From positions 525,008 to 589,007 of the forward strand of contig CAUYUJ010014593.1 of assembly GCA_963575745.1 (NCBI GenBank): DNA of 64,000 nucleotides. Direction: 5' to 3'. Of this stretch, positions 35,993 through 63,708 are shown piece after piece; the first letter of the stretch is position 1; the number at the start of each line of letters is the position of its first letter. The notes beneath the pieces were generated by a model that was not told the DNA's origin, did no database searches, and saw only the letters and a list, made by a program, of their open reading frames with translations. Origin of the DNA: Prorocentrum cordatum (Eukaryota; Sar; Dinophyceae; Prorocentrales; Prorocentraceae). Made by a program: the position numbers and the translations under genes.

Positions 35993-36031
35993 CCGTAGCC
36001 ATCTTTGGCTCAAGCAAGCCATCTTCTCAAG
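35993..36031 (+). other. Spliced leader plus probable relict SL at the 5' end of element 3
   Basis: 35993-36014 is the SL with one inserted base (CCGTAGCCATC then TTTGGCTCAAG). After CAAG, 36019-36031 reads CCATCTTCTCAAG, a degenerate match to SL bases after the internal CCGTAG. SL followed by a 5'-shortened SL is the mark of repeated trans-splicing and reinsertion. Confidence 0.75.
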
Positions 36032-36185
36032 GTGGCTGCCTGGCCAGGGGTTTTCCTTTCCTCCTTTTTCTGGTCACTATGCCACACATTCTTCATTGCA
36101 TGTTTTGTGTACCGAGGGACGCCGACGTTGCTTCGGCCTGGGAGTGCCACCCTTGTCTTCTCTGCTCTCGCAGAAAGCTGCTCCA

Positions 36186-37211
36186 ATGGTGGTGGCCGCT
36201 GCGCAGCTGCGCCTCATCATGGGCGAGGCGGCGAGCCCAATCAACAAGCAGCTTGGCGAGATGAGTGCAGCCATGAACACCAACATGGCGAAGACAAGTA
36301 GTCTCGATGCTCGCCTCACGGCAGGGATCAAACAGAACACCTCGGCGCTCGAACGAGCAGCCAAGGACATCAAGACCGGCAGCGATAGGATGGATGAGAC
36401 GGAGATGCGCTTGACGTGCCTTCGGGATGCTGGCGGGGACGCAGCGATGGACGCTGAAGGCCTGGTTTCCACATGCTCGGCTTCGGCGAGACTTCGGACA
36501 CTCGAAGCCGACTATTCTGAACTACTACGCCAGATTGCTGAACGACCTGCGCGCGTGGACCCTTGGGCATCGTACGCTGGGTCCGCAGCAGGCTGTGCTC
36601 GTGCAGGCTTCTCTGCTCCTGCGACAGCATCGCCGAGGCCTTCTGTCCCCATGGACAAAACAAAACTCAGGATCCGAGGTTTCCCGAAGAAGCAGCTGCA
36701 GGTGGTCTTCGAGCGGCGCCTCAGCATCGTGAAGTCATCCATGCCAGACCAGTATAGAGACAAGTGTGTGCCTCTGTGTGGCAGAGTCTCCGCTGCGCCC
36801 ACGCCATCAAGCTTGAGAGCGCTGAAAACGCCGGGGCCTTCTACGAGCGCAGTCTTGGTCACCCGATCCGCTTCGCTCAAGCTTCGTCGGGAGCGCGCCG
36901 CGACTTGAGGATTGGCTCTGACGAGCCATGCGACATCAAGAAGAAGGGCGATGAGATGGATGCATATTCAGGCCCACATGCGCGACTAATCTCGCTGGGC
37001 GGCCAGCGCCGCCCTAGCCTGCAACAAGTGGCAGGGCCTGTGCCACACGCCCGTCGTGAACGACGAGCCCATCGAGCTGGCGGTCCTTGCCTCGTCGTCG
37101 AAGACCGAGGTGGTCGCGGGAGCGCGCGCCGACGCCCTCAATGACTGTGGCCCCGCATTTCAGCAGGTGCAGGACTTGCCCGCCGCCGTGAACAACGCCC
37201 ATCACGCGTGA
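36186..37211 (+). pseudogene. Element 3 ORF1-like protein with two compensating frameshifts
   Basis: The frame from ATG 36186 encodes a helical region (SPINKQLGEMSAAMNTNMAK, TSALERAAKDIK) likely to form a coiled coil, then KLRIRGFPKKQLQ, which resembles the first strand of an RRM-type fold. Near 36770 the sense shifts to another frame (AHAIKLESAENAGAFYERSL) and returns to the original frame near 36990 (ACNKWQGLCHTPVVNDEP), ending at TGA 37209-37211. With both shifts the protein is about 340 residues. The role is inferred from position: RNA-binding ORF1 of an SL-type element. It does not resemble the zinc-ribbon ORF1 of elements 1 and 2. Confidence 0.55.
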
Positions 37212-37533
37212 AACTCCTCCGCAGAGCTCTGCGCACGAGGTGCTTGCCGCATTTTCTGCCTTGGCCAATGCTGATGGCTCTGTTCCTCGCCCTCTCTCCC
37301 GCAGCAATAAAAAGCATTTCGCAAGCAGCGTTTGCCCTCTTTCCCCTTCCCCCCCACCCAGTCTGGCAGCAGCGCAGACATTCCTCGTGAATGAGCTTGG
37401 CAGATGAAGCAGCCCTTCTCGATCAGCACATGGAATTCGCGAACATTGTGTGGACGTTGAACAAGTTCGGCACATGAGTCGCGTCTGCAAGGCCCGACTC
37501 CTGACATCTCACGCTGCTGCATCCATGCAAGAA

Positions 37534-37672
37534 GTGTTTGTTTTGCGTCGGCGGCTAGGCAGGGGCCGTCTGCGCTGGCGGAAGAAGCTAACTAAACGGG
37601 GGCATCATTCTAGCGAATTGGCCAGCATGCAAGAGGGGGAAGAGGGACGGAGCGGGCGGCCGCAGGGAGGGG
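37534..37672 (+). repeat. Dispersed repeat family H, copy 1
   Basis: GCGTCGGCGGCTAGGCAGGG, CTGCGCT, AAACGGGGGC and GGCGGCCGCAG-like blocks match 49117-49262 in the same order. Confidence 0.7.
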
Positions 37673-37689
37673 GAAATAACGCGGGCCAC

Positions 37690-37995
37690 TCAGGGCTTGG
37701 GGTCGTCTTGGAGCCCTATTGGGAGCCTGTGGGGCAGTCTTGGGGGCCTATTGGGCCGTCGTGGACGCAGCGGAAGCCGAAAAGGCGAACGCGCCAAACA
37801 TATCAGTTCTCCCGTAGGAAATCTACGATTTTTGCTTGTTGGGGCTCTCTCGGGGTGCCTCTTGGGGCGTGTTCTGGGCCTTCGGGGGCTTTCTGGCCGT
37901 CATGGGAGTCGCCTTGAAAGGCGTCTGGAGCCATCGCTCCGGCCTCCTGGGGCCTCCCTGCAGCCTCTTGGGGGCCTGGTGGCCCAGGTCGCCGA
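37690..37995 (+). repeat. CCTCTTGGGG-type degenerate patch
   Basis: TCTTGGGGG, CCTATTGGG, CCTCTTGGGG and CCTCCTGGGG words, the same family as 21500-22130. Confidence 0.5.
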
Positions 37996-38004
37996 AACCT
38001 TGTA

Positions 38005-38035
38005 ACACACGCACACACACACACACACGCACGCA

Positions 38036-38067
<32 letters not shown>

Positions 38068-38073
38068 CACACA
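38005..38073 (+). repeat. (AC)n/(GCAC)n microsatellite at the 5' edge of element 2
   Basis: ACACAC, a CGCACGCACG block, then ACACAC ending immediately before the spliced leader at 38074. The same dinucleotide repeat follows the element at 46047-46094. Confidence 0.95.
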
Positions 38074-38095
38074 TCCGTAGCCATTTTGGCTCAAG
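38074..38095 (+). other. Intact 22-nt dinoflagellate spliced leader
   Basis: An exact match to the SL including its variable first base (here T): T, then CCGTAGCCATTTTGG, then CTCAAG. It is fused to the 5' leader of element 2. Since SL is normally added to RNA in trans, this shows that the inserted template was a mature mRNA. Confidence 0.95.
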
Positions 38096-38268
38096 GCAAT
38101 GCGTCACCCGACGACCGCGAGTCCGAGAGGGCGTTCTGAGCGCGAGGGGTCGCGTTTTGGGCTAATTTCTCGGAAAACGACTGTTCTCTGGGCCGCCCTG
38201 GCCAAAGTTGCTCTTTGGGGAACTGTATCGTGTGGCCCCCGCACACTCCGCGCAGTTTGGGAGCAGCA

Positions 38269-39484
38269 ATGGCACCAGTCGGTCGCAGAGATGAGCAGCG
38301 CACCAAGTGGTGTTGCAAGTGGTGCAAGGGACGAGATGGGAAGCCATTCGTCAACTACCCAGACAAGCTGGCCTGTCACTCGTGTGTTGTGCCCAAGGCT
38401 GTGGCATTCAAAGGCAAGCCAGCGCCCAAGACAAATGTTCCTTCTATTCGGTCAGGGACCAAGCCGCCTGGCAGCGCAGGCGGGAAGCCTCTCGAGAAGC
38501 AGCTTCTGGCCATGTCCAACAAGGTCGCGCAGCTGGAGAAGGAACTCAAGAAAAAGCAGACGCAGCCAATCGCTGACGACGCGGGTACGGATCGCACAGA
38601 GCCTGACCTGGTTGCATGCAGCAAGGCTCGCATTGCAGAGTTGGACAGCCTCATCGCGCATCTCAGCCTCACGAAGCCTCTGCCCCCTGAGATCGAGGCA
38701 GTGGTTGATGGCTATCGCAAGGAGAAGGAGCCCCTCCGAGCACAGGTGTTCGAGGAGAAGCCTGTCCCCGTCAAGGTGCAGGAGCTGTCCAACAAGATCA
38801 TTCGATTAGACAAGCAACAGCTGCACTGGCAATCCAATCTGAACGAAAAAAAAAAAGGCCAAGCTCAAGAAGCTCGAGGATGAGATCGCCGAGGGCGAGG
38901 ACGCCATGGCCAAGTTGCAAGCTCAGCTGGTGGCTATGCACGCTGAGCGTGCCCAGTTGTGCAGTGTGCTTCCTGATCCGCATCCGGAGCCTCCTGATGA
39001 TGGTGCTGGTGATCGCTACATGCTCTCTAAGATGTGCCTGGTGCTGGAGCGCATGGGCCTGGCACGCTCGCTCTCATCGAAGGTGGAGGGCGTCGTGGCC
39101 GAGCTTCGAGAAGCGGAGCTGGCGGCGCAGCGCGCAAAGCAGCAGAGGCAGGAGGAGGCCGCGCGCGCCGCTGCCCTGGCAGGTGGCCAAGCGGCTGCTG
39201 CGGCCGCTGAGGGCGGGCCTGAGGCTGGCGCAGCGTCGGGCGCTGGTCCTGATACACGTGGCCCTCCAGCTCCTGAGGACTCGCCCATGGACGACGAGGA
39301 GCTCGACAGCGCCACTACTGAAGAGCTCAAGGCTTTCCTCGAGGCCTGTGGGCTGGAGAAGCTTGCGGGCGGCACAGATGACGATGCTGAGCTGCGCGAT
39401 GCTGTCAAGCGTTGCCTCAAGCCCCCATCTTGGCAGGGAGTCAAGCGCCGACGGAAGGCGGCAGCTGGCACCATGGATGCCTGA
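38269..39484 (+). pseudogene. Element 2 ORF1: zinc ribbon and coiled coil, frameshift at A11
   Basis: Starts at ATG 38269 (APVGRRDEQRT) with a CKWC...CHSC zinc ribbon at residues 15-38. A Lys/Glu-rich coiled coil (MSNKVAQLEKELKKKQT) and further helices follow. At 38846-38856 an A11 run shifts the sense to a different frame: the first frame ends at 38883, while the other continues as KLKKLEDEIAEGEDAMAKLQ to MDDEELDSATTEELKAFLEA and stops at TGA 39482-39484. With the shift the protein is about 405 residues. An RNA-binding role is inferred from position and composition. The homopolymer could be a slippage site or a sequencing indel; both halves look equally conserved in style. Confidence 0.78.
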
Positions 39485-39494
39485 GACAGTCGCA

Positions 39495-42400
39495 ATGGTG
39501 ATGAGTCCAGGCAGCCAGAATCTCGACAATAACAAGGCTGTGGAGCTCAGTTCGGAGGGCCATTTCGAGCGCGTCCGCTCTGGTGCCAGCGCGCGCACCC
39601 CGTTTGCCCAGGGGGAAGGGCCTGCTGCATGCGAGGCCCACCGCGGTGGGGTGGCCGATGCCCTCGCACATGGAGTTGCTGCTGGCGGCCAGGTGAGGTG
39701 CTGCGATGCTCGCCCCATCGCCCTCCCTGTAAGTCCGAGCGAGGCCCGCGGCGGTGGGGTGGCCAATGCCCTCGCACATGGTGTTGCTGCTGGCGGCCTG
39801 GTGAGGTGCTGCGATGCTCGCTCCATCGCCCGCCCTGTAAGCCCGAGCGAGGTCCACAGCGGTGGGGTGGCCGATGCCCTCGCACAGGACGCCCCCCATG
39901 GCGGCAGGGTGAGGTGCTGCGACGCTCGCCCCGTCGCCCTCCCCATAAGCCCGAGCGAGGCCCACCGCGGTGGGGTGGTCGATGCCCTCGCACACGAAGC
40001 TGCTGCTGGCGGCCTGGTGAGGTGCTGCGACGCTCGCCCCGCCGCCCTCCCTGTAAGACCGAGCGAGGCCCACTGCGGTGGGGTGGTCGATGCCCTCGCA
40101 CACGGAGTTGCTGCTGGCGGCCTGGTGAGGTGCCGCGACGCTCGCCCCGTCGCCCCCCCTGCAAGTCCGAGCGAGGCCCACCGCGGTGGGGTGGCCGATG
40201 CCCTCGCACACGGAGCTGCTGCTGGCGGCCTGGTGAGGTGCTGTGACGCTCGCCCCGTCGCCCTCCATGTAAGCCCGAACGAGGCATATGAAGCTGCCGA
40301 AGGCGGCCTGGGAAGGTGCCGCAATGCTCGCCCCACCACTATCCCTGTAAGCACGAGCGAGGCCCACGCTGGTGGGGCGGCCGCTGCCCTTGCACATGGA
40401 GTTGCTGAAGGCGGCACGGAGAGGTGCTGCGATGCTTGCATTGTTGAATTGCACGATGGTGGGAAGTATAGCCAGGCTCCAGGGAGGAGTCCGCCACAGC
40501 GTCGACGACCTGCTCTGCCTGAGGACACACCGTGCGCAGTGGCGGACCACACGGCACGGCATGGGCTTCAGATTGTCACTGTCAATGCGAACTTGTACGG
40601 GACGCTTATGCGGTATCTAAACACGGCGGACGCGGACATCGTGCTCGCCCAGGAGACGCATGCGACCGACACCAAGCTCCCAGAGGTACAGGCTGATGCA
40701 CTGGATATGGGCTGGCGGTGACAATGGTTGGCGGCTACCCCTACCCTTGATGGAGGCTCGGAAGGGGGAGTGGCAGTTCTTGCACGCACGTACATCCAGG
40801 TAACATCAGCACCTTTCCTCAAGGCAGGGGAAATTGTTCCAGGGCGTGCTGTTGCTGGTGTGGTGCACGCAGGACCCTCTGGCGGACTGGTTTGCGTCTC
40901 ATTGTATCTGTTCACTGGCGAGGGCCGCACGCCACGCAACCTCGCTATCGTCTGGGAGGTCTGCAAATACGTAAAGAGGGTGTCTGACGCAGGGTACCCG
41001 TGGCTCATCGCTGGTGGCTATAACATGGCGCCCGATGAGTTGCTAGAGCACAACTGGCTGCACTTGGTGAAGGGAGTGTGTTGTGCTCCGTCAAGTCCCA
41101 CCTGTGTGCAAACCCTTCCTGGGCGTGTACTGGACTATTTCATCCTCCATCGGTCCCTCACGGATGCGAAGGCGTTCTCCCTGGACGTGCTGGTGGATAC
41201 GAGTCTTTGACTCCAAAAACCAGTCCAGCTACAACTGCCTCATGCCAAGCTAGCACTGAGGAAGCGAGTCCTGAAGCAGCCGAAGGCGAATCCTCCCCTC
41301 AAGCCTGGACGTGCTCGCTACCCATGGTGTTGGGAGAAGGTCATCACGGAGGTGCAGCAGGTGCAGTGCGGTGGGCAGTTGGCCGCAGTCTGGGGCCTCA
41401 TGCTCGATGGCATTGAATGGGAGCTCGCAAATCGACATGACCTTGTGGATCGACAGAGAGCCGCTCACCTCGGGCGTGCAGGCCCCCCTGTGTTGCGTAA
41501 CAAACCAGTTGCCTGGACACCTGCACGTCGGCGCGAGCGTTTTGGCAGGACCGCTTCTGCTTGGGCGGTAGCAGCGCGGTGGGCGAGGCACCTCAAGTCC
41601 GCGCGCCAGGTTTTGTTGCGGGACATCGGTGTGCTGAATGCCATGGCAGGGAATGCCGAGGCCGACCCCAAGTTGCTACAACGTTTGGGCCAACTACTGC
41701 ATGAGGCAGAGGTGTACACTCGCAAGACCCTGCGGCAACACCATCTTCTCGAGTTACTTGATGTCGAGGCGCGTGCGTTTTTCGCCGCTGGCTTGGAAGG
41801 GCTGGTGCTCGACACCTTTGAGGTGCAGGTGGACCGCATCAGTGCGACAAGCGACGTGCACAGCAATGCAGCAGAGGCGAAAGCCACGGCGGCTTGGCAA
41901 GAGTGGGCGAAGGCCTCCTTTCAAGGAGGGGCAGGGCTCGCCCACAGGTTCACTAAGGTAAAGATGGAAGTGGAAGTGCCCACTGCTGGCAGCTCGTCCC
42001 AACCCACTGCCCTGGCCGATGCTGAGCTCGATGTGTGGGCAGGTATTTGGCAGCATCATCGGCTCCGTGAGGTCGATCTCCCCGCAGGCGCCGAGAACTG
42101 GGATGACCTTGAGCCCGTCACGGTGGCCAAGCTGCGCGAGGTGCTGTACACCTTCCCCGCTAAGTCGGCGGTGGGGCAGACTGGCCTTCACCCCAGGCAG
42201 CTGGGCCAGTTGTCCGACATGGCCTTACTTGCAGTCTCGTTGGTCTTCACTCTCTGCGAGCAAAGGCTGCAGTGGCCGCCTGACAGGCCGGCTACGATAC
42301 TCGTCCGCCTGCCCAAGGCCAGCGGGGGAACCCGACTGATTGGCCTGCTGAACTCCTTGCTGCGAGTCTGGAGCCGAGCGAGGCGCCCAATTTCCGCAAA

Positions 42401-45400
42401 TTGGAGTAAGACACATCGGAGTGCGCACAGCTGGGGCTCGGGGGTGGGCCGCAGTTCATCGGCATCTGCTTTCTGTTTGGCGCCGAATAACGAGATTGAT
42501 GTGGCTCACGGGAAGAAAACGCTCACGCTGCTGGTCGACATTTGGAAATGTTTCGAGCTTATCGACCCCAGCGTCCTGCTGCGAGAGGCCGCAGTAGTCG
42601 GTTACCCGTTGCGGATGGCCTGGATGCTCATTCAGGCTTATCGGCAGCCACGCGCTCTGCGGGCGCACGGCAGCGAGTCGAAGTTCTTTGTTTCCGGGCA
42701 GGGCATCGTGGCAGGATGCTCACATGCGACGACAGTACTGGAGATCCTCCTCTATAGGGCCATGTGTAGGCTCTCGGCGATTTGCCCCAACGTGACGCCT
42801 CGCCAGCTGGTGGACGACACTTCGCTGAGATGGAGCGGTGCTGAGGCGCAGTGTGCAGAGGAGGTGGCCCTGGCAGCCGACGAAGCACAGGAGGCGCTCA
42901 CCGACCTTCGATTGCCAGTGCAGGTGAAGAAGCTGGGATATGTCGCCTCGGACGCGGCCACGGAGCGCGCTGTACTGCGGATCACTAAGCAGCGCCACAT
43001 AGCACGCCAGCGCTGGATGCGTAACCTGGGGCACGAGCTCACGACGGTGCGGCCGTTACGGCTGCAGGAGCAGGCGCGGATGTTCGCGCTGCGCACTCGT
43101 GTACGACGGTCCCATATCCTCAAACGTGCTGTGGGGGGTCGACGGATGGCGCGGATCCAGAGCACGGGCCTCGCACCCTCTGTGCTTCGCGGTGCGGCTG
43201 TCATGGGCGTGGCTGAGCATGTTCTGAAGCCCGTGCGCACGCTTGCAGGTGCCTTAGCAGGCGTGAAGACGGCGGCATCGTTGACGACAGGCTTGGTGAT
43301 GCAGCGTAACCCTCGATATGATCCCATCTTTGCTGCCACTTTGGAGCTGCCCTACCTCTACGCGTCGTGGCTGTGGGAGGCGAAGGTCTCCATCACGCAG
43401 CTCCAGCACGCTTGGGAGGTGACGGTGCCTCGCATGCAGAAGGCCGAGGCATGGTCCAGAGTCACGGGTCCACTCTCGGCACTGTGGATGACGCTTAGAC
43501 GAGTTGGCTGGTCTATGCGATCGGCACATGAAGTTGTCACCGACGAGAACGTGTATTTCTCTCTTCTGGCGGTGGCACCTCGCGATTTCCGAGACCTACT
43601 GGAAGCTGGAGTGCAACGGTGGCAGATGCGGCGAACACAGCAGCATCTCCCAGGCTACGATGGCGAGGTCCTCTGGTATCGGGCAGTCCGTGCGTGCATC
43701 CGTGGGCCTCGTGCTGTGCGAGACTCGGCGGAGCTGGGAGCTCTGCAGTGCCTGTGGACAGGCGCCATGTGGCCACGAGAGAGAAAGTTCTGCCATGGCT
43801 TTGTTTCGTCGCCTAATTGTCTCGCTTGCTCGGCCATGAGACCCGAGACCCTCGGGCATCGTTGGCTCGACTGCCCCGCGCTGCTTGAAGGCACCGAGGC
43901 GGGCCCGTTGGACGAGGATACGCGCGAGCACAAGCGTAGGGTCGCTACGCGGGAGCTGATGCGCAAGGAAGTGCTTGAGTCCGCGGATCCCACTTTCTTT
44001 GATTCGGCCCAGCACGCTTTCGCGATGCCGCTGGTCCCACCTAGCTCTGAGAGGCCCGACCGAACTCCTGAGCAAATTTTTGAATGGGGTGATCCTGAGG
44101 TTCCCTGGGAAGGCACGGTCTACACGGATGAGGCTGGCCAGGATATGCAAGTTCCCGAGGTTGCGCGGTGTGCCTGGGCGATAGTCCAGCTGGATTCCCA
44201 GGGCCGCCCGTCCAAGGCCAGGTTTGGAAGCCTCCCAGGGATCCTGTCGGTGCCCAGAGCTGCCAGGTATGCAGGATACCAGGCCATCCTCGCTTCGCGG
44301 TGTGTAACTAGAATCGTAAGTGATCACCTTTCCCTGGTCCAAGAGGGCGAGCGCTGGAGCGAGAGCGAGGTTTCGGCCGCCGCTCGCCACGCTGAGATTT
44401 GGCGAGCCATAAGAGCCACGGTGGAGCGGCAGGCCCGACCCCCGCCCCGTTTTGCCTGGACCCCGTCTCACAACACGGCCGAAGAGGCGCTTAGTCGGGG
44501 GGTGGGGGTGATGGCCTGGCTGGGGAACGCGTGGGCGGATTTCTTTGCCACTGTGTCTTTGCATGTTGTCACGATCAGCCCGAATTTCGGTAACGGCATG
44601 GAGCTGCGCCTCGCTGAAGCTGTCAATCGTGCCAGGTTTGTAGCTTGGGCTGGCAAGCGAGTGCTGAGCTCAGGGCGGTGGGATGGCCCCAAGGACGAGC
44701 CCCGTGCACGCAAGCCCCCGCTAAAGCCGCCCAGCCTTGCCATTGTTTCCCATGATCTGGCGCCCGATGGAAAGGGTTTCAGGTGCAGGAATTGTAGTAG
44801 AGCAGGGTTTTCGGAAGAGACGATCCGCGGTATGTTGACCCTCCCCTGTCGGCCTTCCACCCTGCTCCGGGTTCGAGCCGCGGCCCTTTTGGCGGTGCGC
44901 AGCCCATCCAGAGCCGAGGAGAACACTGCTCCCCCCTCGTCTCAGACAGCCCTTGCCCTGGGTCTGGCGGCCGCGGCAGCGTGTGCTGCGACCGCGCGTC
45001 GCGACGACTCCTGCGCGTCGCGGGGAAGGCCTGAGCAAGGGCGTGAAGATAGCAGGTCTCCCCGACGTGAGGGCCGTGCCGCCCCTGCTGCGCGCTCAAC
45101 CACGGCGAGAGATGGAGGCGGCGGGGGCCCGTCGTTGTCGTCGTCGGAGAGGCGGAGGATGGATTCGACCGAGGAGCGGCTAGCCGCTTGCACGGCTCGC
45201 CTCCTCAGAGCTGCAGAAGGCACACCTGCTACTCTTGTTTCCGTCGCCTCGCCTCCCACTCCCGCGCCACCCACGGGAGGATTGCTGGAGGCCCCCCTGG
45301 AAGAGCAGGATGCGGGTGTGTTGCGCGAGGGCGACTCGACGCGCGAGGAGGCTAGGAGGGCGGGGATTCGTGCGATGCGTACTCGTGCGATGCGCCCTGC

Positions 45401-45788
45401 CGCTGGCCCCTCGCCTGCGGCGGCGCCTGGAGCGGCGCAGCCTGCGGCTGCCGCCCCCGCTGCCCTGCAGAGGCAGGGCCAGGGCTCCCGAGCTGCCGCC
45501 GCTGCTGCTATCGCCGTGGGGGCGGGCGGGCGCGGGGGGCGCGAGGAGGAGGTCTCGAGTGTGCTTGGGCACGAGATCATCCTGCGCCCGCCTTTCACGG
45601 TCTGTCAGCGATGTGGAGCGTATGCCAAGCGGCAAGGGCGGCTTTGGGGGGCCCCTTGCCTTGGCGCCCTCCCCGCCCCTGCGCTGCGTGCAAACCCCGC
45701 GGAGCGGGAACGGGCCAAGCGCCGCGACCGCCTGGTGGCGAAGCTCCACCCTGTGACGGGAGCCCCCCTCGCTACTGGACGGGGTTAG
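39495..45788 (+). pseudogene. Element 2 ORF2: repeats, EEP endonuclease, RT, RNase H; two in-frame TGAs
   Basis: A single frame of 2,097 codons from ATG 39495, which lies 10 nt after the ORF1 stop in the +1 frame, interrupted only by TGA at 40719-40721 and 41208-41210. Order: 36-residue repeats (about 46-340); EEP endonuclease (about 356-570) with IVTVNAN, AQETHA, LIAGGYNM where GDxN is usual, and RVLDYFIL; RT with LLVDIWKCFE (motif A, Asp 1015), SGQGIVAGCS (motif B) and QLVDDTS (motif C, Asp 1107-1108); connector with VTGPLSALWMTLRRVGW; RNase H with YTDEAG (Asp 1545), RIVSDHLS and GNAWADFF (Asp 1682); zinc knuckles CRNC and CQRC...C (from 2037). The RNase H Glu position is not conserved. The EEP Asp change and the TGAs suggest an inactive but recent copy. 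Confidence 0.88.
39633..40440 (+). repeat. Coding 108-bp tandem repeat at the N-terminus of element 2 ORF2
   Basis: Units begin at 39633, 39741, 39849, 39957, 40065, 40173 and 40281 (exactly 108 bp apart), then a shortened unit leads to 40359. Each encodes 36 residues like EAHRGGVADALAHGVAAGGL followed by VRCCDARPVALP. It keeps frame with the EEP domain. Long minus-strand frames over this region are shadows of the in-frame repeat. Confidence 0.92.
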
Positions 45789-46045
45789 GCCCCTGGTCCT
45801 CAGGTCTTTGGCGTGGCCTGCTGGCTGTGCCTGCTTCTTTGGTGCGGTCTGGCGACCGCCTCTGTGATCTGGCCCCCTTTTGGGTCTCTTGAGTTGCCCT
45901 GCAGGCTCGGCCTGCCCTTGCGCGCGGTCTGGGGACCGTGTACTGTGCTTTTGGAGCCTGGAGAGGCCCCAAGTGCCATCGGCCCTAGTGGCCCGTCACA
46001 AGTACAGGGCCGTGTTCGACCACGGACGCGGTCTCCTTGACGAGC

Positions 46046-46046
<1 letters not shown>
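45789..46046 (+). other. 3' region of element 2
   Basis: GC-rich non-coding sequence between the ORF2 stop and the (AC)n junction. There is no A-tract and no similarity that I can see to the 3' ends of elements 1 or 5. Confidence 0.55.

Positions 46047-46094
<48 letters not shown>
46047..46094 (+). repeat. (AC)n microsatellite at the 3' edge of element 2
   Basis: Twenty-four uninterrupted AC units starting exactly at the end of element 2. It matches the 5' flanking repeat type. Confidence 0.95.
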
Positions 46095-46097
<3 letters not shown>

Positions 46098-54205: not shown

Positions 54206-54347
54206 CCACGGGACCCTCCTGCTCGCTCCCCCCCGGCCTGGCTTGGGGACCGGCGGAAGGCGTGCAGGGACTTGACCGAGCGCCACGCCACGCTGACCGC
54301 GGCCTGCACGAGGGCGGAGGCGATGGCCGAGGATCCCCCGCCTTCCT

Positions 54348-54471
54348 TGGCATCGCTCGGACGTGTGCATTTTTCCTTCGGCGAGGACCATCTAGGAGCA
54401 TCCTTGATCATTAGGCGAAAAAACCACGCACGAAACCAAAAAAAAACAGGGAATGGACGTCCGAGCGATGG
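54348..54471. mobile_element. TIR element family C, copy 2 (124 bp)
   Basis: Same terminal repeats (GGCATCGCTCGGACGT and ACGTCCGAGCGATGGC), GCGAGGACCAT centre and A9 run as 24617-24744. This copy lacks the 59-bp flanking duplication. Confidence 0.78.
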
Positions 54472-54721
54472 CGAGCTTTTTCATCCCCAGTCCTGCGACA
54501 CTTTTTCCTTCTCTTCCTCCTCTTCCTTTTTGACCTTAGGCAAACTGGGGTTGACTGGGATCGTAGCGTCAGTCCTCCTTTTCCTCCTCCTCCTCCTCAT
54601 CTTCGTCCTCCCTGTTCGTTAGAAAGAACTTCTCCGTGTCGCGCCCCCAAGACTTGTCCATTCGGCGGGCCAGGTGTTTTGCTTGAGACTTATGCGCCAT
54701 TTATGATCCTGAAGCTTGAAA

Positions 54722-55095
54722 TTTGCAACAGTTTCACATAGTTTGGGCGGCTCGTTTTCAACATGTGGCTCTCTCCTTCGCTCCGCGCACATTCGTCTTA
54801 AAAGTTCGCAGCAGTTTCACTAATGTGGCTCTCGCCTTCGCGCCGCACTTGTTTGTAACAAGCGCAGGCGAGCCCCGTGGTGAAAGCGCAAGGAGGAGAG
54901 GGGGAGGAGTGGAGGAGGAGGAGGAAGAGGAGGAGAAGGAGGAGGAGGAGGAGAAGGTGGAAGAGGAGGAGGAGGAGGAGGAGGAGGAGGAGAAAGAGTG
55001 GGTGAAACCGGCAGCCCCAGCGCTGGGCTGCCCCGCATAAGCCATGGCCTTCGCGCCGCACGCAATCATTTTGAAAGTCTGCAACAGTTTCACGG
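54722..55095. repeat. Short dispersed repeat units around a (GGA)n tract
   Basis: GCAACAGTTTCAC, GGCTCTC, CCTTCGCGCCGCAC and TTGTAACAAG-like blocks recur at 54725-54870 and again at 55046-55095; a reverse-complement match is at 12488-12535. 54903-54996 is a (GGA)n/(GAA) tract. Confidence 0.6.
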
Positions 55096-55754
55096 ATGGG
55101 TGGGCGCTGCTGGAGACAGGGCTCGCACGCGGGATGTGAACCATGTTCCTCGTTTGGGGGGCGACCGCTGGCGGCTGCGGGGGCTGCCCGTCCATCCCCG
55201 CGGGGGTGGCCTCTGCCTGTCCTTGGTCCTCCCTCCGAGGGGGGGGGGGGGGGGAAAGCCTGTCTGGGCTTTTTGGGTTTGGCCTGGGGGTCCTCCTCGT
55301 CGCCTGGGCGCTCGCGGCTTGGCGGGAGGCCGCGCGTCGCGAGCGGGAGGCGGCCAGGGAGGGCTGTGCCTGGTCTTGGGACCGGGGCTTCGGACCAGGG
55401 GCGGCCCAGGGGCTTCCTCTGTGGGCGTGCCACCATGCTGGGGGCGGGGGGGCGAGGAGGAAGGAGGGCGTGGGGAAGATGAAGACATTGGGGGGGTCCC
55501 AGCTCCTTCCCGCTCCTCCAGCACCACCCTCTCCCCACTCCTCCCCCTCCGCACCCCAGCTGCGCAGCGGCCACCCCTCACGGGGTGGGGCCCGCCCCCC
55601 GCGCCTGCGCTTCGGGCCTCGTGGCCGATGTCGGGTTCGTCGGGGCTTCCGGGCCCCGCGCCAGAGAGGCAAGGCAGCCCGGGGACCTCCCGAGGCGGGG
55701 CGGCGCCGAACGCTCCTCCCTCCTTCCTCGCCCCTGCTTCCTCGCCCTCCCTCT
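55096..55754. other. No recognised gene; very GC-rich
   Basis: Contains a G16-type run near 55239-55254. Long overlapping frames on both strands (up to 351 codons) reflect lack of AT-rich stop codons and have no recognisable domain. Confidence 0.4.
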
Positions 55755-55795
55755 TCCTCCCCCTCCTCCTCCTCCTCCTCCTCCTCCTCCTCCAA
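55755..55795 (+). repeat. (CCT)n microsatellite
   Basis: About eleven pure CCT units. Confidence 0.9.
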
Positions 55796-56249
55796 GACGG
55801 CGTTTCGGAGCAAGCTATTGAGGGAACGTCTCGCCCGAAAGTTCCAAAGGAACCAGCCGCATGCACACGGGTCCCTTTCCGCTTACTGCGAACGCCAGGG
55901 GGAGGACACATTTCCCCAGGCACATACATGCATGCTTTTGCTTCCGCCCCCGGGATTGTCTCTCGAAAGTGATGTGCCGCCTGCGGGGCAACCATAAAGG
56001 TGCCACCTCGTCGAGACGAAGAGCCAGGATCAGACGTACACGCGCGATCCACTCCCAAGCGGCCAGCATCAACATCAGAGGCATGTTGCTGTGCGTATCA
56101 GGCGTAACAAGCGAAGCGGGTGCATATTCGCCATGCCTGGAGGTACACCAGCATGCAGAGCGCACGCATGATGCCACGCGCGTAGCATGTTTGCAGTATT
56201 CGCATTTGTGTTTCTCCCTTCTTCTGGGCGGGACGTACCGGGGGAACAA
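55796..56249. other. No recognised gene
   Basis: The plus frame that becomes the 56250 ORF is open here from 55861 but shows no protein-like composition. Confidence 0.35.
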
Positions 56250-56973
56250 CATGTCTTGCCATATCTTTGGAAGCCGAGCAGGAATCGACCAGCCACGGGT
56301 CAAGAGTGCAATCAAGGCAGAAAAGGTCTTTGACACCGAGCAACGCGGACGTATGCGCGTGAAGAATTATTGTTTTCGCAAGCAGCAGCTGGATGAGAAT
56401 AACGACGTTACCGCGGCCATCGAACAGCTAGGAGACAAGGTGGCCCGCGCGGAGAGTTTGACCCACGACGTATCGGATGATCAGACGCGCGGTTTTGAAA
56501 GTCTGTCCCATCAAAATGGGTAGTGTGAGAAGCAAAGGAGCATAGTTGCTTCTATTGTTGCGGAGGCGGACGAATCCGAAAGAAAGGTGCTGGCGAGTTC
56601 GGCCAGAAAGAAGGACGATGGCAGTCCACTTGTTATTGAGCAGCTCGAAGAAAGAATGGCCCTGACTTCCATACTCGCCCGAGTCCATTTGGACTTTCTG
56701 TCGCGTGAATACGAACGCTTGTCGTCTCATGGCGGTTTGTCCGAGAATCCAAGGAATGTTCTGCATCTTGTTCGGGCAGACCTGGAAGAGGCTGAAGATA
56801 ATATACCAGGAGCAGCAAGAGTCCGTGCCGACCCGGTGCTGATGGGCAGAATCGCTGATTTTTTGCGAGCAGAGATGAGCACACAGTTCGGGATGTTGTT
56901 TCGCGACTGCAGGCCGAGGGCCCCGAGAACGAAGTCATGCGTACTCTGCGACACTGGGAGTAACTCGGTGTAG
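56250..56973 (+). pseudogene. Unidentified protein-like reading frame with one in-frame TAG
   Basis: One frame reads MSCHIFGSRAGIDQPRVKSA, then EKVFDTEQRGRMRVKNY and VTAAIEQLGDKVARAESL, hits TAG at 56521-56523, and continues in the same frame as VASIVAEADESERKVL, VIEQLEERMALTSILARVHL and LEEAEDNIPGAARVRADPVL to a TAG at 56971-56973. Composition is charged and helical, codon use is less GC-extreme than neighbours, and no low-complexity repeat is involved. I do not recognise the family. It could be a host gene fragment, an exon pair, or an ORF1 of another element. The stop may be mutation, assembly error or a missed intron. Confidence 0.35.
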
Positions 56974-57959
56974 TGATGCTTGAAGGCCACACGCCCGATC
57001 AATTGAAGTACCTTATCTTATACATGTTGCCATCGTGCGCATGCGCCCGCGAGGAAGAATGGCTGGCGCACGCTTGGCGCGTCGAGACATACGATTCTCC
57101 CGTGCTGGGTGCTTCTGGCCCCGGGCTTTGCACCTCCCCCCCGCCCCTCGCCCCGCCCCCCAGGTCCCCCGCAAGGCGCGCGTTCAGGATTGGAGTCCAC
57201 TGCCCCTCTGTTATGAGGCCGTTGTATAGGAGAGGGAACAGAGGACAGAGTGTTTACACAGTTTTGAGGAATTTGTGAATTCAGCATGGGTCCGGCTTGA
57301 AGTGCCTCGAAGAAAGCGCGCGCACCCGAATCGCAGACATATGGCTATATGCGGACCTGGGACACTTTGCTTCCCGTCGTCGTCCTCGCCCTTGCTCCGT
57401 TCCCCTTCCTGTCTTCCCTCCCCTGGATGGTGTCGAAAGCGTCCGCGGCTCGGGCGGGGGAGCGCCCCTTCCCACCTCCCTTATTATTCCTCGTTCCTCT
57501 TTGCCTCCCTGCTCCACCGTCCGTCGTCCTACCTCGCCCACCCTCCTTGTTCGAAAAGTGAAGTCCCTGGTGCCGCGTGCCCGCGTCAGCGGTAAATGCT
57601 TTTTCGATACCCGAGCACAGCGGCGCAACCAAACAGAGGGGATTGCCAATGCGAGAGTTCGGGGCGCACCCAAAATTTGGGCGGCACGGCCGCCGAGCAC
57701 ACTCGCATCGCTAACATGTAAATTATAAGTGCCTGCGGCAAGGTCCGCCCCCGTGCCGGAGCAGTGGTCTATATGGCGGCGCGTGGAGCTTTGACTTGTA
57801 AGAGGTCCGTGACATGTGACATCTCTCGTGTTTTCGGATTGCTGCGCGGCTTTATTTGGTGTCCTTCGAGGCCTTTTGGGGCGTCTTCGGGCCGTTGGGG
57901 GCCGCTTTGGCGCCGCGTTACACCGCGGCCGCCCTGGGCCAGGGAAGCGTGCATTTGCG
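56974..57959. other. No recognised gene
   Basis: GC-rich stretches with C and G runs (57125-57165). No domain or repeat family recognised. Confidence 0.35.
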
Positions 57960-58440
57960 GTTCTCTCGGGGGCGCCCTGGGCCGGGGAAGTGTGTATTTG
58001 CATTCCCCCCCAGCTGGGCATGTCAACTTCGGTTCTGGGCTGGCAAAGTCGGGGCGCCCTCGAGGTGGCGAGCGTTTACCTATTCGAAATACACAGATGA
58101 ACGTGTGATCTGTGTACACAGTTTGTGTCTTCAACTGTGTATTTTCGTGTGTGGGCCCGCTGTTTACACAGATCGTGGTGTGATCTGTGTGCACAGATCT
58201 CGTTCCCATCTGTGTGTTTGGAGTGTGTCCCTCGCGGGTGGTGTTGAATGGGCGGAAACTTTCGCGTTTCTCTTCCGGCTGGTCCAGGGGGGCCTCGTGC
58301 GCGGTCGAAATACACAGTTCGTGTCTCCAACTGTGAATTTGTTGCGGGCCGTTCGCTGGAGTGGTCTCTGGGCGGGAGTTTCCGCGGGTTTCCCGGCTGG
58401 TCCAGGAGGGGGCCGTGGTCTGGGCATGCAATGGCGCGGG
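57960..58440 (+). repeat. Degenerate CACAGATCTGTG-type repeat and duplicated block
   Basis: 58080-58230 repeats TACACAG, GATCTGTGTACACAG and CAGATCTCG; 58225-58335 and 58350-58440 share CGGCTGGTCCAGG and GGCGG.A.TTTC blocks. The words are dyad-symmetric, so the patch is rich in small inverted repeats. A 386-codon minus frame over this region is not accepted. Confidence 0.55.
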
Positions 58441-59549
58441 GGGGGGGGTGGGGAGGGTGGGCTGTGGGAAGGAAGGGGTTCGATAGGAGGGATGGCCGAG
58501 GGGCCAAGGATGAACGGGACTGGACGAGAGCGGAGGAAATGAGCCCAGGAGGATTTGCATCATCGGTGTCAGCATCACGAGGGCGAGGGAGGTGGGGTGG
58601 GGGGCAGAAGTTGGGAGCATGATGTGCACTAGGGCGGAGAGGATGGGAGGAGGGCAGGCATGTGGACGATGGGGGAACGAATCCGGCGCAGGAGGACGAC
58701 GAGGAACGACGTGAATTGGCACATGGGGGGGGGCAGTGTGGATGAAGGGCATGATGAGGACCGGGGCAATCGGAGGGGCATGAGGAGGGTGGAGCCGCAG
58801 CGAAGGGATATTTGGAAGAGGCGGGGGGTTTGGCATGAGCTCGAGGCGGGCGCCAGCTAACGATTCGCTGAACAGAGTTTTGCTTGTCCGTGCACCCCCA
58901 GAACACAGTGACTGGTTGCAGAACTTCATGATAAGGGTAATCGTGCGTTTCGTGCTTCCAGGCCACAGGCCCGAGTCCGCGACGCCCCTTGGCGTCGCGA
59001 TGATGCCGCCCCGATTTGCCAGACCGCGTATGCACAGATACGCAGAATATGTGTTGCAACGTTTGTTTCATGACCCTCTCTATACTAACAGACCCACGTT
59101 GGAATCCAAGTTCAGGATTGGGCCCGCCAGATCTCATTGAGCCCTGCGATGGGAGATGTTTGCCGCGTGCTCTGGGGGCGGGGGCAAGGCGGGGGCGGGG
59201 GGGGCGGGGCGCGGAGGGGGCGGGGCGTGGAGGGGGCGGGGCGACGAGCGCTGCAGTTGGGTGCTCTAGGCAGCGAAGGCTCTCATTCTCGGCAGCGGCG
59301 TCAGCGCGCCGTCTAGGGAGCTCTAGGCGGCGACGGGTGCCCCCACGCAGGGCACCTCTTGGCGTGCCTTCTTCTTCCGCGAATCTGTGCAATCAGGGAG
59401 GTGTCTCCCGCGACGAGCTCCCTGGGCCTTTCAGAGACATCCCCTGGGCGTCCAGGCGCGGCCAACAGCGAATGACTGAGTGGCAGCCCGCTCGCGCCGT
59501 GGTTCGAAGGCCTCCTGGAGGACGAGCTCGCGCGGCGGCGCAGAGTTGA
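58441..59549. other. No recognised gene
   Basis: G-rich (58440-58760) then GGGGCGGGGC-rich (59175-59250) sequence. Upstream limit of element 5 is not identifiable; no EEP motifs are seen here. Confidence 0.35.
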
Positions 59550-59670
59550 CTCTGCTGCTCGGGCGCGGCTGTGGCGCGACTTTGCAGGCCGCGCGGCTCG
59601 CAAACTGATCGAGCCGAAGCCCGTGGAGCCGCGGCCGAGATCCTTGCCTGGCGGCGCGCCCGGGCTTCCA

Positions 59671-59705
<35 letters not shown>

Positions 59706-59737
59706 CGCTGGCCGCGGAGGCCATCGCGCTGGAGTGG

Positions 59738-60938
59738 ATGCCTCTGTGGGTCAAACCGTCGAGGGCGAGGGGCGCCCCCGCGGCCAGCTGGCAGGCACCG
59801 CGAACGCTCGAGGCCATCAGCCTGAACCAGGCGCGGACGACCCCCCTCTCATTCGGGCGCGGGAGGGGCCCCGGCTGGGACAACTTCCACCCGCGCTTGC
59901 TCAACGAGCTCTCAGACCCCCTTGGTCGAGCGCTTCGCGGCCATCTTGAACCAGTTCGAGGACTCGGCCGAGGTGCCCGACCCTGGGGCGACGATGATGG
60001 CGTTCATCCCAAAGCCGCCTCCCGACGTGGGCAGGCGGCCCATCGGCCTGATGGAGCTCTGGCCTCGGGTGGGGTCGAAGATTCGCCAGGGCCTGGTCCG
60101 CGCCTGGGAGCGCTCGGTCGACGCCGATTTCGCACGGGGCAAGAGCGGGGGCACGGCGGTGGACCGCGCAGCCTACATCCACAACTTGCTCGTGGTGCAC
60201 GCCATGCGTTTCGACGGATTCGTTTCTGGATCTGTATTTCGACGTCGGCAAGTTCTTCGAGAACGTCTCCCACTGCATGGTGGTTGTGGTGGCGCTGCGC
60301 TTCGGCTTCAACCTGCAGTTGTTGAGGTGCCTATGCGCGATCTACCGCGGCCCGAGGCGGCCATGTGGTTCGACGCCACGTCGCGGGCGGCGATGCCCAA
60401 CGGCACGGTGATCGCGGGCTGCAGCAGCGCGGCTGGCGTGGTGAAGTTCCTGACGCTGAGCGTTCTCCGGCAGATCGTGGTGGAGGCGCCCGTTGTCCGG
60501 CCGCTGAACCTCGTCGATGACCCGAAGGTTCGCGCGATCGGCACGCTCCGCGCGGTGTGCAGCCAGTTGATCGTAGCAGCCAACATTGTGATCAAAGAGA
60601 TCGAGAAGCTCGACCTGCCCCTGAACTTGCTGAAGACATGCGTCCTCTGTCCGGCGTCGGAGCTCGCCGACGCGCTGTTGGCGGACAGTCGCTGGCCGTT
60701 CGATGAGTCTTGTTTCTCTTCCACCCGCCTTACCTCGGCGGGGGCGCCTCCGACGGCATGGGCCGTCGGGCGCCCGCGCAGCGCGCTCGCCTGTCTGCCG
60801 CGTCGGCCGCGGCGACTCGGCTCGCCAAAATCGGGCGGGGGAGGGGGGCTTCTCGGGTCCACAGGGCGGGTCCGGTCGCTAAGGCCACGTGGGGTGCGCA
60901 CATTATTGGTCTTGGGGACTCGGCTCTGCCGACTCTGA
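59738..60938 (+). pseudogene. Element 5 reverse transcriptase, frameshifted
   Basis: The pre-RT segment ends in PGWDNFHPRLLNELSDPL (59738 frame). 59922 onward reads MMAFIPKPPPDVGRRPIGLM (fingers, RPIG) and RVGSKIRQGLVRAWE. Motif A, FLDLYFDVGKFFENVSH, lies in a third frame at about 60220-60290. The 59922 frame then resumes with NGTVIAGCSSAAGVVKF (motif B) and LNLVDDPKVRAIG (motif C, VDD) at 60505-60530. At least three frame changes make it unreadable as a whole, yet all three catalytic blocks survive. Confidence 0.78.
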
Positions 60939-61609
60939 GGGCGGCCTCTGCCAGGTCTTTTGGCCCCCTTCAGCCTGGCCCCCACCTTGGCCTCACATTC
61001 CTCCTTTGCGGGGCCCCCCAGCGTGACCCTCTCGTCTCGACGACGGTGGGCGCCGTCGCGGCGTTTGTGTCAGTTTGGCACCGCAGCGTCACGAAGCAGG
61101 TGCTTCTCTCGGCGTTTGAAGACGCGCTCCTGTCTGCGAGCAAACCTAGGCCCTGGGGACCCGCCAAGCAACCTCTGGCTGCCCTTGTGCTAACGCTTGC
61201 CCAGATCCGTTGGAGGTTGGATGTCCCTAGTGAGGTTTTGGTTGGCCAGGTGGGTCGCCCCTGGAGTTTGTCGGGGTTTCCCCTTGCTTTCTTCGCCCTT
61301 CGCGCGCGCGAAGCTTGCGGGGAAGCTATTGCGATGGAAGAACAGGTTCGGCACAGCGATTTCGGCGCCGAGTGGCGCGGCGCCATCTGTCTCAAGCCAG
61401 CTCTTGCTTTGATTTCGAAGCAGAGCTCAATCTGGTCCGATCATTGTCGTCACTGCTTGCGCTGCCTGGTTGCTAATAGGTATTGGTGCCAGCAGAGATT
61501 GCACGACGCCTGTCAGGACATCTCTCCTGCTTGTTTGGTCTGCCAGGCCCCCTCGGGCACAACGTTTCTTTATCGCTTCGATTGCCCCGCCCGCGAGGCG
61601 TGGCGGTGA
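60710..61609 (+). pseudogene. Element 5 connector region with zinc-binding motif
   Basis: A 299-codon frame between RT and RNase H. The C-terminus holds HCRHCLRCLVANRYWCQQR and CLVCQAPSGTTFLYRFDCP, a cysteine/histidine pattern typical of LINE connectors. It ends at TGA 61607-61609; RNase H follows in another frame. The first 80 residues overlap the RT frame and are doubtful. Confidence 0.65.
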
Positions 61610-61615
61610 GGTGCG

Positions 61616-62680
61616 TTGAGCCTGGACTTGCGTCGGGCGGCGGATCGCGTGCGCCTCCTCTCACCCAGAGCCCAGGAGCTGTTTGCCAGGCGTGTGCTCC
61701 CTGACCCCACTTGTTGGTTCACTCGCCCCTTTGAGCACCCCGTGGCCACGGTGTGCGGGCTCAATTGGCCCGCCGAAGGGTTGGTGCTTGGGGGGGGGGG
61801 GGGGGGGGGGGGGGCGCATGCGTTCATAGACGGCTCGTACTGCGAACCTGCTCTCCCCGGGATTCGATCGGCGGGTTGGGCGGTGATCGTGACGGGCGGG
61901 CGGGGGGCATTGGCTCGTGCGGTATGGGGGCGCGTGCCCTTAAGCGTTGCTCCAGCCCAGGTCGCCCGCGACGGTGAGGACTACGCTGTGGTCTCTCTTG
62001 TTCGACGTGCTTCAGTTTTCCCCGGGGCCAACTTGCATGGGGGCTGCGCGCGCGCCATTGGGTATGTTTCCGACCCCGTGGGAGCTCTGTGTCCAGATAT
62101 TGCTCGACCGCATATGTGGCAGCATGTGTATGATAAGCTTGACGGTATGCTGTGGCATAAAGTGCCAGCCCATAGCACCCTGCGTGATTTCGAGAATGGC
62201 AAGCTCAGTCGGCTTGAATATCTTGGCAACAAGGCTGCGGACGAATATGCGGAGAAAGGTGCCTCTTTGGGTAGAATCGCTGCCGCTGATCGCGCCGTCG
62301 TCGACGGTTGCTTCGAGTTGGCGCGTCTTCTCTGTAAGTTCTCGGCTGAGCAAGAGGCTCGGATTGGAGACAGTCAGCAGTTCGACCATGTCGGCATCGA
62401 TTGGATTAGGCACATCACCCTTGAGGTCCCTCGTCTCCCTGATGACGTTCCTCCACCTCCTCCTCCTGAGCCCCCCCCCCCCCCCCTGGGAGCGGCGGGG
62501 CGGGTCGGGGGTCGTAGAGGGTGGGTGGGGAAGGTCAGGGGGGCAGGGCCGAATGGCCCGACCTCCATGTCTGGCCAGCCCGCGCCCACCACATCATCGA
62601 GCGTGGGGTCATGGACACCTCGGGGGCAACGGCTGGACCCCTGGCCCTCTGTACTCGCTGCGGCTCGGTTTGTGGCGTAG
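61616..62680 (+). pseudogene. Element 5 RNase H domain
   Basis: A 354-codon frame. RNase H signatures: AFIDGSY (first Asp), RDGEDYAVVSL (Glu), IGYVSDPVGA (third Asp) and LGNKAADEYAEKG (last Asp), with VPAHSTLRDFENG between. All four acidic positions are present, unlike elements 1 and 2. Just before the domain, the G25 run encodes eight Gly. A Pro-rich tail (62450-62490) follows; downstream LCTRCGS in another frame (62640-62660) is probably the zinc knuckle. Confidence 0.78.
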
Positions 62681-63079
62681 CACGGGGGAAAAACTGCTCT
62701 CGCGCCAGATTGCCCGGGCCACCGTTCCCCGGGTCGTGAGAGGCAGCTGGATTGGATTTTGCAAGGCCGCCATCCTTCGAAGCAAGGGTTTCGGATCTCG
62801 CGCGCGGCCGTGCTATCGGATCCCTCTCGAGAGGACCTGGCGGCCAAGATGGGTCTGGACGACCTCCCGCTGTTTGCGCCGCCTCTGTCCAGAGGCTCTC
62901 TTGCGTCCATGTCGGGCGGGGGCGGATGTGCTTGGGCGGGGACTGGGGTCGACCTTCTGCGAGGCCTGCCGCTTTTTGGGTTCAGCTCTCGGGAGGAGGC
63001 TGAGTCAGCTGGGCTTCGGGCGCAAGAGCGCCGACGGCAGGTTGTGCCGCCCGGGTGGGATTTTGACCCCCCCCCCTAA
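62681..63079 (+). pseudogene. Element 5 C-terminal tail
   Basis: Frame 62759-63079 reads LAAKMGLDDLPLFAPPLSRG and REEAESAGLRAQERRRQVVP to a stop at 63077-63079. It is similar in position and Arg-rich composition to the end of element 2 ORF2, so it is probably the original C-terminus. Confidence 0.5.
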
Positions 63080-63610
63080 CTCGTTTGGAGTTTGTTTGAT
63101 GCATGTTTAATGCGGTGGCACCTTTCTAGCCGTTGCCGAGCCCTTTCTGCCAGTGCGCATGCGCTTGCGCCTCCTATCCCAATCCCTGGGATAACGAGTG
63201 CGCGGGCATATTCAGTTTCGGTGCCGAAACTGTGCATGCCATCTTGGTGCCCCCTAGTTTCAGGCATCCCCCCCCGGGACTGCCATCAGGAACCACCTCG
63301 ACGCGCGCGCGCCCCCTCCAACTCGCCCCCCCCCCCCCCCCCCTCCCCCCGAGTGAGGGCCGCCTCTAGGCCTTGCCCGTGGGGGCCATCATCGGCCCCA
63401 CACCCCGCGCAGCTTCCATCATAGGGGCTGCGTGGGTCCCCCACCCACACCTTTTCATGATGGCTCCAATAGCCACCGGGGGGGGCCGATGACCTCCCTG
63501 CAGCCCCTCGGCCAACGAAGACGGCTGCAGGGGGGGGCCCAACGTGCCTCCACACCTTTGCACCTCTTCACCTTCACATTATGGCGCCAATTGCCACCGC
63601 GCGATTTTCC
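63080..63610 (+). other. 3' region of element 5
   Basis: Non-coding. Holds a C20-type run at 63322-63343 and a direct repeat (ATGGCKCCAAT.GCCACCG at 63460-63480 and 63582-63600). It runs directly into (TCC)n. Confidence 0.5.
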
Positions 63611-63687
63611 TCTCCTCCTCCTCCTCCTCCTCCTCCTCCTCCTCCTCCTCTTCTTCTTCTTCCTCCTCCTCCTCCTCCTCCTCCCCC
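63611..63687 (+). repeat. (TCC)n microsatellite between elements 5 and 4
   Basis: TCC units with a TTCTTCTTC interruption, closing with a short C run. Element 5 ends at its left and the spliced leader of element 4 starts at its right. Confidence 0.93.
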
Positions 63688-63708
63688 CCGTAGCCATTTT
63701 GGCTCAAG
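63688..63708 (+). other. Spliced leader sequence at the 5' end of element 4
   Basis: Exact match to the 21 invariant SL bases (CCGTAGCC, ATTTTGG, CTCAAG) right after (TCC)n. The variable first position is C here, which is not a usual SL base and may belong to the repeat. Confidence 0.92.

Follow-up and report, generated by a model that had tools for sequence, protein, structure and literature searches.

A LINE that begins with a spliced leader

In dinoflagellates, the presence of a spliced leader (SL) on mRNA is the rule. Here we describe a 64-kb stretch of the genome of Prorocentrum cordatum (64,000 nucleotides of contig CAUYUJ010014593.1, the whole of which is called the window below), in which this leader stands in the DNA itself, at the very start of a long interspersed nuclear element (LINE). 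The LINE, element 2, occupies positions 38074-46046 of the plus strand and has the domain order endonuclease (EEP), reverse transcriptase (RT) and RNase H. A pattern search of the window found the 21-nt SL core exactly at 38075-38095 (+) and at 63688-63708 (+). At the first of these sites the T at 38074 completes the full 22-nt form (38074-38095), whereas the base at 63687 is C instead of the T, A or G with which the published 22-nt form begins (PMC7245778; here and below, papers are cited by PMC number for what their excerpts state). A further SL, at 35993-36014 (+), differs by one inserted base. The initial annotation had described the three sites in just this way, as exact over 22 nt, exact over 21 nt and interrupted by one insertion, and on all three counts it was right. 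Local alignment scores for the sites at 38074, 63688 and 35993 are 44, 42 and 38, respectively; in three shuffled windows, searched on one strand, no score of at least 24 was obtained. With up to three mismatches allowed, the core had 0 matches across 100 dinucleotide shuffles of the window. These shuffles, the alignment scores and a reversed control across the genome, which gave 0, rule out a chance origin of the SL.

All three SLs in the window are preceded by a microsatellite identified with Tandem Repeats Finder (TRF): a (CA)n/(CACG)n repeat at 38005-38073 (+), which forms the 5' flank of element 2 and its insertion target, a CAT/CAG-type repeat at 35782-35979 (+) and a (TCC)n repeat at 63608-63684 (+). 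This placement is an addition to the initial annotation, which had not seen the repeats before all three SLs. Its further statement that each SL is fused to an element stands fully for one of them. The SL at 38074 opens a full-length LINE; the one at 35993 heads a 240-aa frame that resembles ORF1, the first open reading frame (ORF) of element 2, by eye; and the insert that begins at 63688 runs out of the window. A second, decayed-looking SL is also seen by eye at the 35993 site.

Behind its SL, element 2 continues with a 66-nt leader (38096-38161) that is conserved in its family, with a mean column conservation of ~0.94 over 28 copies. ORF1 (38269-38883, 204 aa) is, judged by eye, zinc-ribbon-like and probably a coiled coil; the P. 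cordatum protein P0005 aligns to 38299-38820 within it (tblastn, E = 7e-11). The interval between ORF1 and the endonuclease contains a 108-bp tandem repeat of 6.1 copies (39631-40285), the unit of which is open in the frame of ORF2. An APE-type endonuclease domain of the EEP fold was located at 40569-41208 by tblastn of proteins P0004 and P0006. In Pfam, the protein-family library used here, P0004 matches Exo_endo_phos (E = 8.2e-9) and P0006 falls just under the cut-off. Since P0004 aligns to 40569-44942 in a single frame (tblastn), EEP lies upstream of RT and in the same frame with it. The RT domain (42312-42947, with LVDD at ~42807) was recognized by Pfam RVT_1 and by tblastn with relatives; the RVT_1 match (E = 1.9e-6, 28.2 bits) is slightly below the curated cut-off of 29.6. 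An RNase H-like region at 44118-44474 is suggested by motifs seen by eye (VYTDEAG ... FAWTPSHN) and by tblastn to P0006, which itself matches Pfam RNase_H weakly (E = 0.015). The 3' UTR and 3' end, GACGAGCG, cover 45789-46046 and lack poly(A). They are followed at once by an (AC)24 microsatellite (46047-46094), and the two flanks of element 2 are the only places in the window with AC runs of at least six units. With the RT of ORF2 we found seven proteins, two of them named Prorocentrum cordatum; a comparison of ORF2 with solved structures in the Protein Data Bank (PDB) gave no match. With a predicted RT and a predicted EEP domain upstream in the same frame, element 2 is an APE-type (EEP) non-LTR (non-long terminal repeat) retrotransposon, which, by analogy with its LINE family, would integrate by target-primed reverse transcription. 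The description of the copy as a near-intact element was generous: it is full-length, but two in-frame stops, at 40719 and 41208, interrupt its endonuclease domain.

Spliced leaders and microsatellites in the element-2 family and across the genome

To follow the 5' end of the family, we used the first 605 bases after the SL as a query and obtained 41 matches, 30 of them with loci (40 of 226 candidates were scored). The 5' end is reached at 28 of these 30 loci, and at all 28 a recognizable SL stands at the same place, in copies that span from 100% down to 70% identity. As for the remaining two, one is truncated at position 139 (L040) and the 5' part of the other reads N (L047). Presence of the SL on other full-length members, on which the initial annotation had made its proposal depend, is thus confirmed, for the family of the element at 38074, at each of the 28 loci read to the 5' end. 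The 22-nt SL is exact in 12 of the 28 copies and begins with T in 26. The sequence upstream of it is a microsatellite or minisatellite of CA type, which is hardest to recognize in L052. In five diverged copies (L048, L050, L055, L058 and L059), a CA-rich minisatellite (CACGGCAGAACACACAGGAG-like) replaces (AC)n before the SL. The exact family leader occurs at 27 places in the genome, with the exact 3' half of the SL in front of it at 21 of them; of the other six, L044 and L054 were read and show an altered SL or junction.

The 3' end was followed in the same manner (32 matches, 30 loci read). All 30 loci pass from a common 3' end into AC-type sequence without poly(A), although L068, L074 and especially L087 have only a short flank of this kind and L083 has a displaced junction. 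Both ends could be read for 15 copies. Every one of them has a recognizable SL and a constant 3' end with small variants, and is flanked on either side by an AC-type repeat that keeps its orientation. The length is 7.5-8.1 kb in 14 of them and 10.7 kb in one. For a further 13 5' ends and 15 3' ends, the matches listed include no partner. With the same simple repeat on both sides and constant junctions, the element-2 family is a microsatellite-specific LINE family. As read from its genomic copies, then, the mobile unit of this one family begins with the SL and has a constant 3' end, and its insertions lie inside an AC-type repeat in a fixed orientation.

The association of SLs with simple repeats extends beyond element 2. 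In the genome as a whole (4,128,499,153 bases in 21,875 contigs), there are 14,218 exact SLs, 7,201 on one strand and 7,017 on the other; ~0.0015 would be expected from base composition, and the reversed control contained 0. We sampled the first 30 of them in contig order, which lie on three contigs, with 1.5 kb on each side. A simple repeat (autocorrelation of at least 0.6) stands right before 24 of the 30, compared with 5.1% of random positions in the window and 5.3% of random positions in the loci (binomial P ~ 1e-25). At the strictest threshold, 0.8, the figures are 19 of 30 versus 2.2% and 3.0%. Genome-wide, (CCT)3 is found within 12 nt upstream of 2,368 and (GGA)3 of 835 of the 7,017 reverse-strand SLs. 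These gapped counts use the reverse strand alone, with each SL taken once among the matches listed, because a forward-strand SL is counted in several registers. Downstream, (CCT)3 within 12 nt accompanies only 2 of the 14,218 SLs, although the downstream side is often coding and therefore an imperfect control.

What these SLs head is more varied. At E 1e-4, half of the sampled inserts (15/30) have a frame with a match in another of these inserts or in element 2, mostly with 20-40% identity; L005/L017 and L007/L023 are closer pairs, and L011 has the element-2 leader by eye. From the ORF1-like frames we would guess that most of the sampled inserts are LINEs. One sampled insert, L030, is an SL-headed retrocopy of a WD40 host gene (Pfam) without a microsatellite, and some others have weak or doubtful Pfam matches, e.g. 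KOW in L008 and Cwf15 in L026. Among the short units, L008 (~1 kb) is SL-headed with (CTC)n on both sides and L020 is SL-headed with a GGA-type repeat on both sides; L004 has different repeats on its two sides. For the L005 family, 40 of 301 candidates were scored and 40 matches obtained; 39 of these begin at query base 1, the base after the SL, and one at query base 379; the SL itself was seen for L005 and L017. It is only suggestive that each ORF1 family keeps its own repeat: L005/L017 and L007/L023 all have (CCT)n, but L018, with an AGG-type repeat before it, matches L021, with a CCT-type one. In seven of the 30 loci (L001, L005, L007, L017, L019, L027 and L029), an ATG abuts the SL without an intervening base. 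The idea that an ORF opening directly at the SL is a sign of SL-dependent translation was dropped, as L005/L017 are better conserved in another frame.

Origin and probable renewal of the spliced leader

If the SL of element 2 came from trans-splicing in every cycle of the element, it should not follow the phylogeny of the DNA behind it. Conservation as such is of no use here: the SL has a column conservation of 0.956 in the 28 copies, the adjacent leader is equally conserved (0.94), and we dropped this as evidence for renewal. The distribution of changes is more informative. On a tree built from the other columns, the retention index of the SL is 0.0 (27 steps of a possible 27), compared with 0.39-0.71 per 22 columns of the leader and 0.56-0.78 in the body, and some SL changes recur in unrelated copies. 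In column-matched resampling this corresponds to P = 0.038 against all alignment columns and to 0 of 20,000 against leader columns. A second line of evidence comes from relics. In 11 of the 30 sampled SLs, a second SL-like stretch (score of at least 16) lies within 40 nt behind the first, compared with 1.4% in random downstream windows of the same loci; four of these are exact. In seven of the 11, the inner stretch opens with SL position 7 immediately at the junction, as would be expected if splicing had used the AG of CCGTAG. A diverged inner relic behind an exact outer SL is, by eye, common to L006 and L018. Across the genome, 1,202 SLs are followed by the exact 15-nt relic. SL changes without phylogenetic signal and older relics behind newer SLs are what repeated trans-splicing predicts.

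We therefore favour, with a probability of about 0.8, the reading that the family of the element at 38074 consists of APE-type LINEs whose mobile RNA would be a mature trans-spliced mRNA, reverse-transcribed into a microsatellite. At the level of DNA, the earlier proposal that the template was such an mRNA, and that the LINE uses host trans-splicing, finds support for this element in the SLs of 28 of 28 copies, in the retention index and in the relics. In the proposed cycle, a copy of the element would be transcribed, the host would join the SL to it at an AG acceptor, and ORF1 and the EEP-RT-RNase H protein would be made. At a nick in a simple repeat, reverse transcription would then copy the SL-headed RNA as far as the first nucleotide of the SL. 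The SL would probably be added anew in each round, and the genomic SL may itself offer two acceptor AGs for the next one: use of the last AG (CAAG) would restore a clean junction between SL and element, and use of the inner AG (CCGTAG) would leave the 15-nt relic. Renewal of the SL in the 28 element-2 copies, none of which shows a 15-nt relic, would always have to place the junction at CAAG. At its 3' end, the RNA may pair through (AC)n with the nicked (GT)n strand, and by this pairing the family would retain its own repeat as target.

Several observations weigh against this reading or narrow it. The copy in the window is broken by its two endonuclease stops, and the window sequence does not establish elements 3 and 4 of the initial annotation, those headed by the other two SLs, as full LINEs. 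AC-type repeat on both sides is established for one family; simple repeats on both sides were otherwise seen in single cases, namely the minus-strand LINE described below, L008 and L020, and not for the many other (CCT)n inserts. Within the family, the SL and its leader are alike in conservation, the contrast in retention index is drawn from four informative SL columns, and none of the 28 copies has a 15-nt relic even though CCGTAG holds the first AG, which leaves the choice of acceptor unexplained. Among the sampled loci, six of 30 SLs have no preceding microsatellite at the criterion used, Pfam found no RT or endonuclease in the 1.5 kb after the SL in any of the 30 (one frame per locus), and LINE proteins match the insert of L001 alone (P0007, 43% over 60 aa).

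The SL might instead have been captured a single time by an ancestor and inherited since then as 5' UTR DNA, perhaps serving as a promoter or start site. We consider this unlikely. It would agree with an SL that is no better conserved than the adjoining 66-nt leader and with the lack of SL relics in the 28 family copies, and retroposed SLs have been proposed as promoters by Song and others (PMC6050394). However, inherited DNA should carry the signal that is found in the adjacent columns and is missing, over the four informative columns, from the SL. Nor does a single capture readily account for the 15 of 30 sampled SLs that head inserts without detectable mutual likeness, for the older SL behind an exact outer one in 11 of 30, among them the diverged relic common, by eye, to L006 and L018, or for the exact 15-nt relic on 1,202 SLs. 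As the sole explanation, single ancient capture is rejected by the retention index, the inner relics and these 1,202 cases.

Slightly less probable still is the view that there is nothing special to explain: every dinoflagellate mRNA is SL-tagged, any retrocopy will carry the SL, and microsatellites are merely common. SL-tagged retrogenes are indeed well known (PMC12014239, PMC7245778, PMC6050394), and the WD40 retrocopy L030 has an SL without a microsatellite. That the SL is a routine feature of mRNAs is probably true and part of the best explanation. Yet a microsatellite stands before 24 of 30 SLs as against 5% of random positions, the longer AC runs of the window are confined to the two flanks of one LINE, and 15 of 15 copies have constant, AC-flanked ends. 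Two things are special here: the mobile unit has its 5' end marked by the SL, and its insertions sit in microsatellites. The most remote explanation is that the LINE targets SL genes, so that the SL would be target sequence, as with SLACS, CZAR, CRE and NeSL. SL exons are a known LINE target (PMC4640811), but here the SL is on the 5' side only, and the outer flanks are microsatellites of the same type on both sides. An SL-gene-targeting LINE was rejected, as the flanks that were read contain no SL gene sequence.

Going beyond mRNA-templated insertion of a single family, one may speculate, quite tentatively, that the general machinery of retroposition in this dinoflagellate lineage consists of LINEs with an SL at their head and microsatellites as their target. 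A copied SL would then be a portable trans-splice acceptor, and a copy would need no promoter of its own: it could be expressed from read-through transcripts of the host, re-tagged and recopied, and the same enzyme might insert copies of host mRNAs, as well as of passing viral RNAs, into such simple repeats too. This wider possibility is weakened by the LINE-protein match in only one of the 30 sampled SL inserts.

Relation to known systems and other sequences

SL retrogenes and microsatellite LINEs are each known; their combination may be new. Slamovits and Keeling reportedly described DinoSL-tagged retrogenes of dinoflagellates in 2008. Such retrogenes are by now well established, and the element responsible for them is called unknown in excerpts of PMC6050394 and PMC12014239, one of which favours LTR elements. 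They have in common with element 2 a genomic SL at the 5' end, tandem older relics and re-addition of the SL by trans-splicing (PMC6050394, PMC12014239, PMC7245778). The difference is that DinoSL retrogenes are copies of host genes, whereas element 2, which has the 5' genomic SL, is no host-gene copy but a LINE that encodes its own RT and resides in microsatellites. LINE copies that begin exactly with the SL would be a direct candidate for scattering the many SL-tagged gene copies of dinoflagellate genomes, and the microsatellite target would provide a signature by which host retrogenes could be tested.

Insertion inside a simple repeat is a trait that element 2 shares with the microsatellite-specific LINEs Waldo, Kibi, Koshi and Dong. 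To our knowledge, the members of this group are animal elements, and we know of no spliced leader in them. SLACS, CZAR, CRE and NeSL insert into SL genes and so adjoin an SL by choice of target, whereas the SL of element 2 is its own 5' end. Of the microsatellite-specific LINEs known in animals, Togen inserts at (TG)n (PMC4640811); it stands near NeSL, a clade with a restriction-like endonuclease, whereas element 2 has EEP. For Schistosoma mansoni, six elements with an internal SL are described, and the authors suggest that they may have been trans-spliced and retro-transcribed (PMC5832876). Those are six cases for which, according to the excerpts, assembly chimerism was not excluded, compared with a whole family with defined target sites here. 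The LINEs of Symbiodiniaceae and Polarella are described as old remnants (PMC8045281, PMC10235124), unlike the present family, whose copies are as much as 98% alike across the 605 bases at the 5' end, and LINEs have been suspected, from proximity, of causing retroposition (PMC10235124). Two Symbiodinium genomes are given 496 and 244 putative SLs (PMC8045281), compared with our 14,218, although by another method. Neither a LINE family that carries the SL throughout nor the insertion of SLs in microsatellites was reported in the excerpts of the open-access literature that we consulted. If the proposed cycle is correct, element 2 would be a clear case of a retrotransposon RNA whose 5' end is defined by host trans-splicing, and it would give a simple answer to the question of how a promoterless LINE could survive in a polycistronically transcribed genome.

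The window contains further LINE sequence. A LINE on the minus strand, older than element 2, has a body at 3941-9411 (-) in which tblastn with P0006 and P0010 located EEP, RT and RNase H, their frames being broken. On the element's own strand, its 5' flank is (CTC)n (10633-10933, -) and its 3' flank (TCC)n (3476-3656, -). Right after the (CTC)n lies a possible decayed SL (10617-10631, -), which would mark the 5' end; its score of 22 is marginal, as shuffles reach 22 in 2, 2 and 0 bins. A third LINE is represented by RT and RNase H-like fragments, located by tblastn in two frames at 59994-62263 (+), upstream of the (TCC)n repeat and SL at 63688. Near the start of the window, at 61-2354, there are 77- and 90-bp tandem-repeat arrays with a common core around CCCCATAGGGAGCTCCACCGAAGGCCCCAGTG.

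Exact SLs were also encountered in three contigs of other assignment. A 7.2-kb viral contig from IMG/VR with 22% GC (L091), giant-virus-like by eye and encoding a Glyco_transf_41 protein, has two of them; in its region 1936-2913 (-), the SL at 2746-2766 precedes a 254-aa ORF by 45 nt. A large DNA virus may here have received a copy of a dinoflagellate mRNA; alternatively, the contig may be chimeric. Another exact SL is found in a contig of a Dehalococcoidia metagenome-assembled genome (MAG; L093:4334-4354, -), with no simple repeat before it. A different Dehalococcoidia MAG contig opens with (CAT)n, directly followed by an exact SL (L092:1-52). Dinoflagellate DNA was probably joined to this contig as a chimera, in which case it would add an example of an SL behind a repeat from outside this genome.

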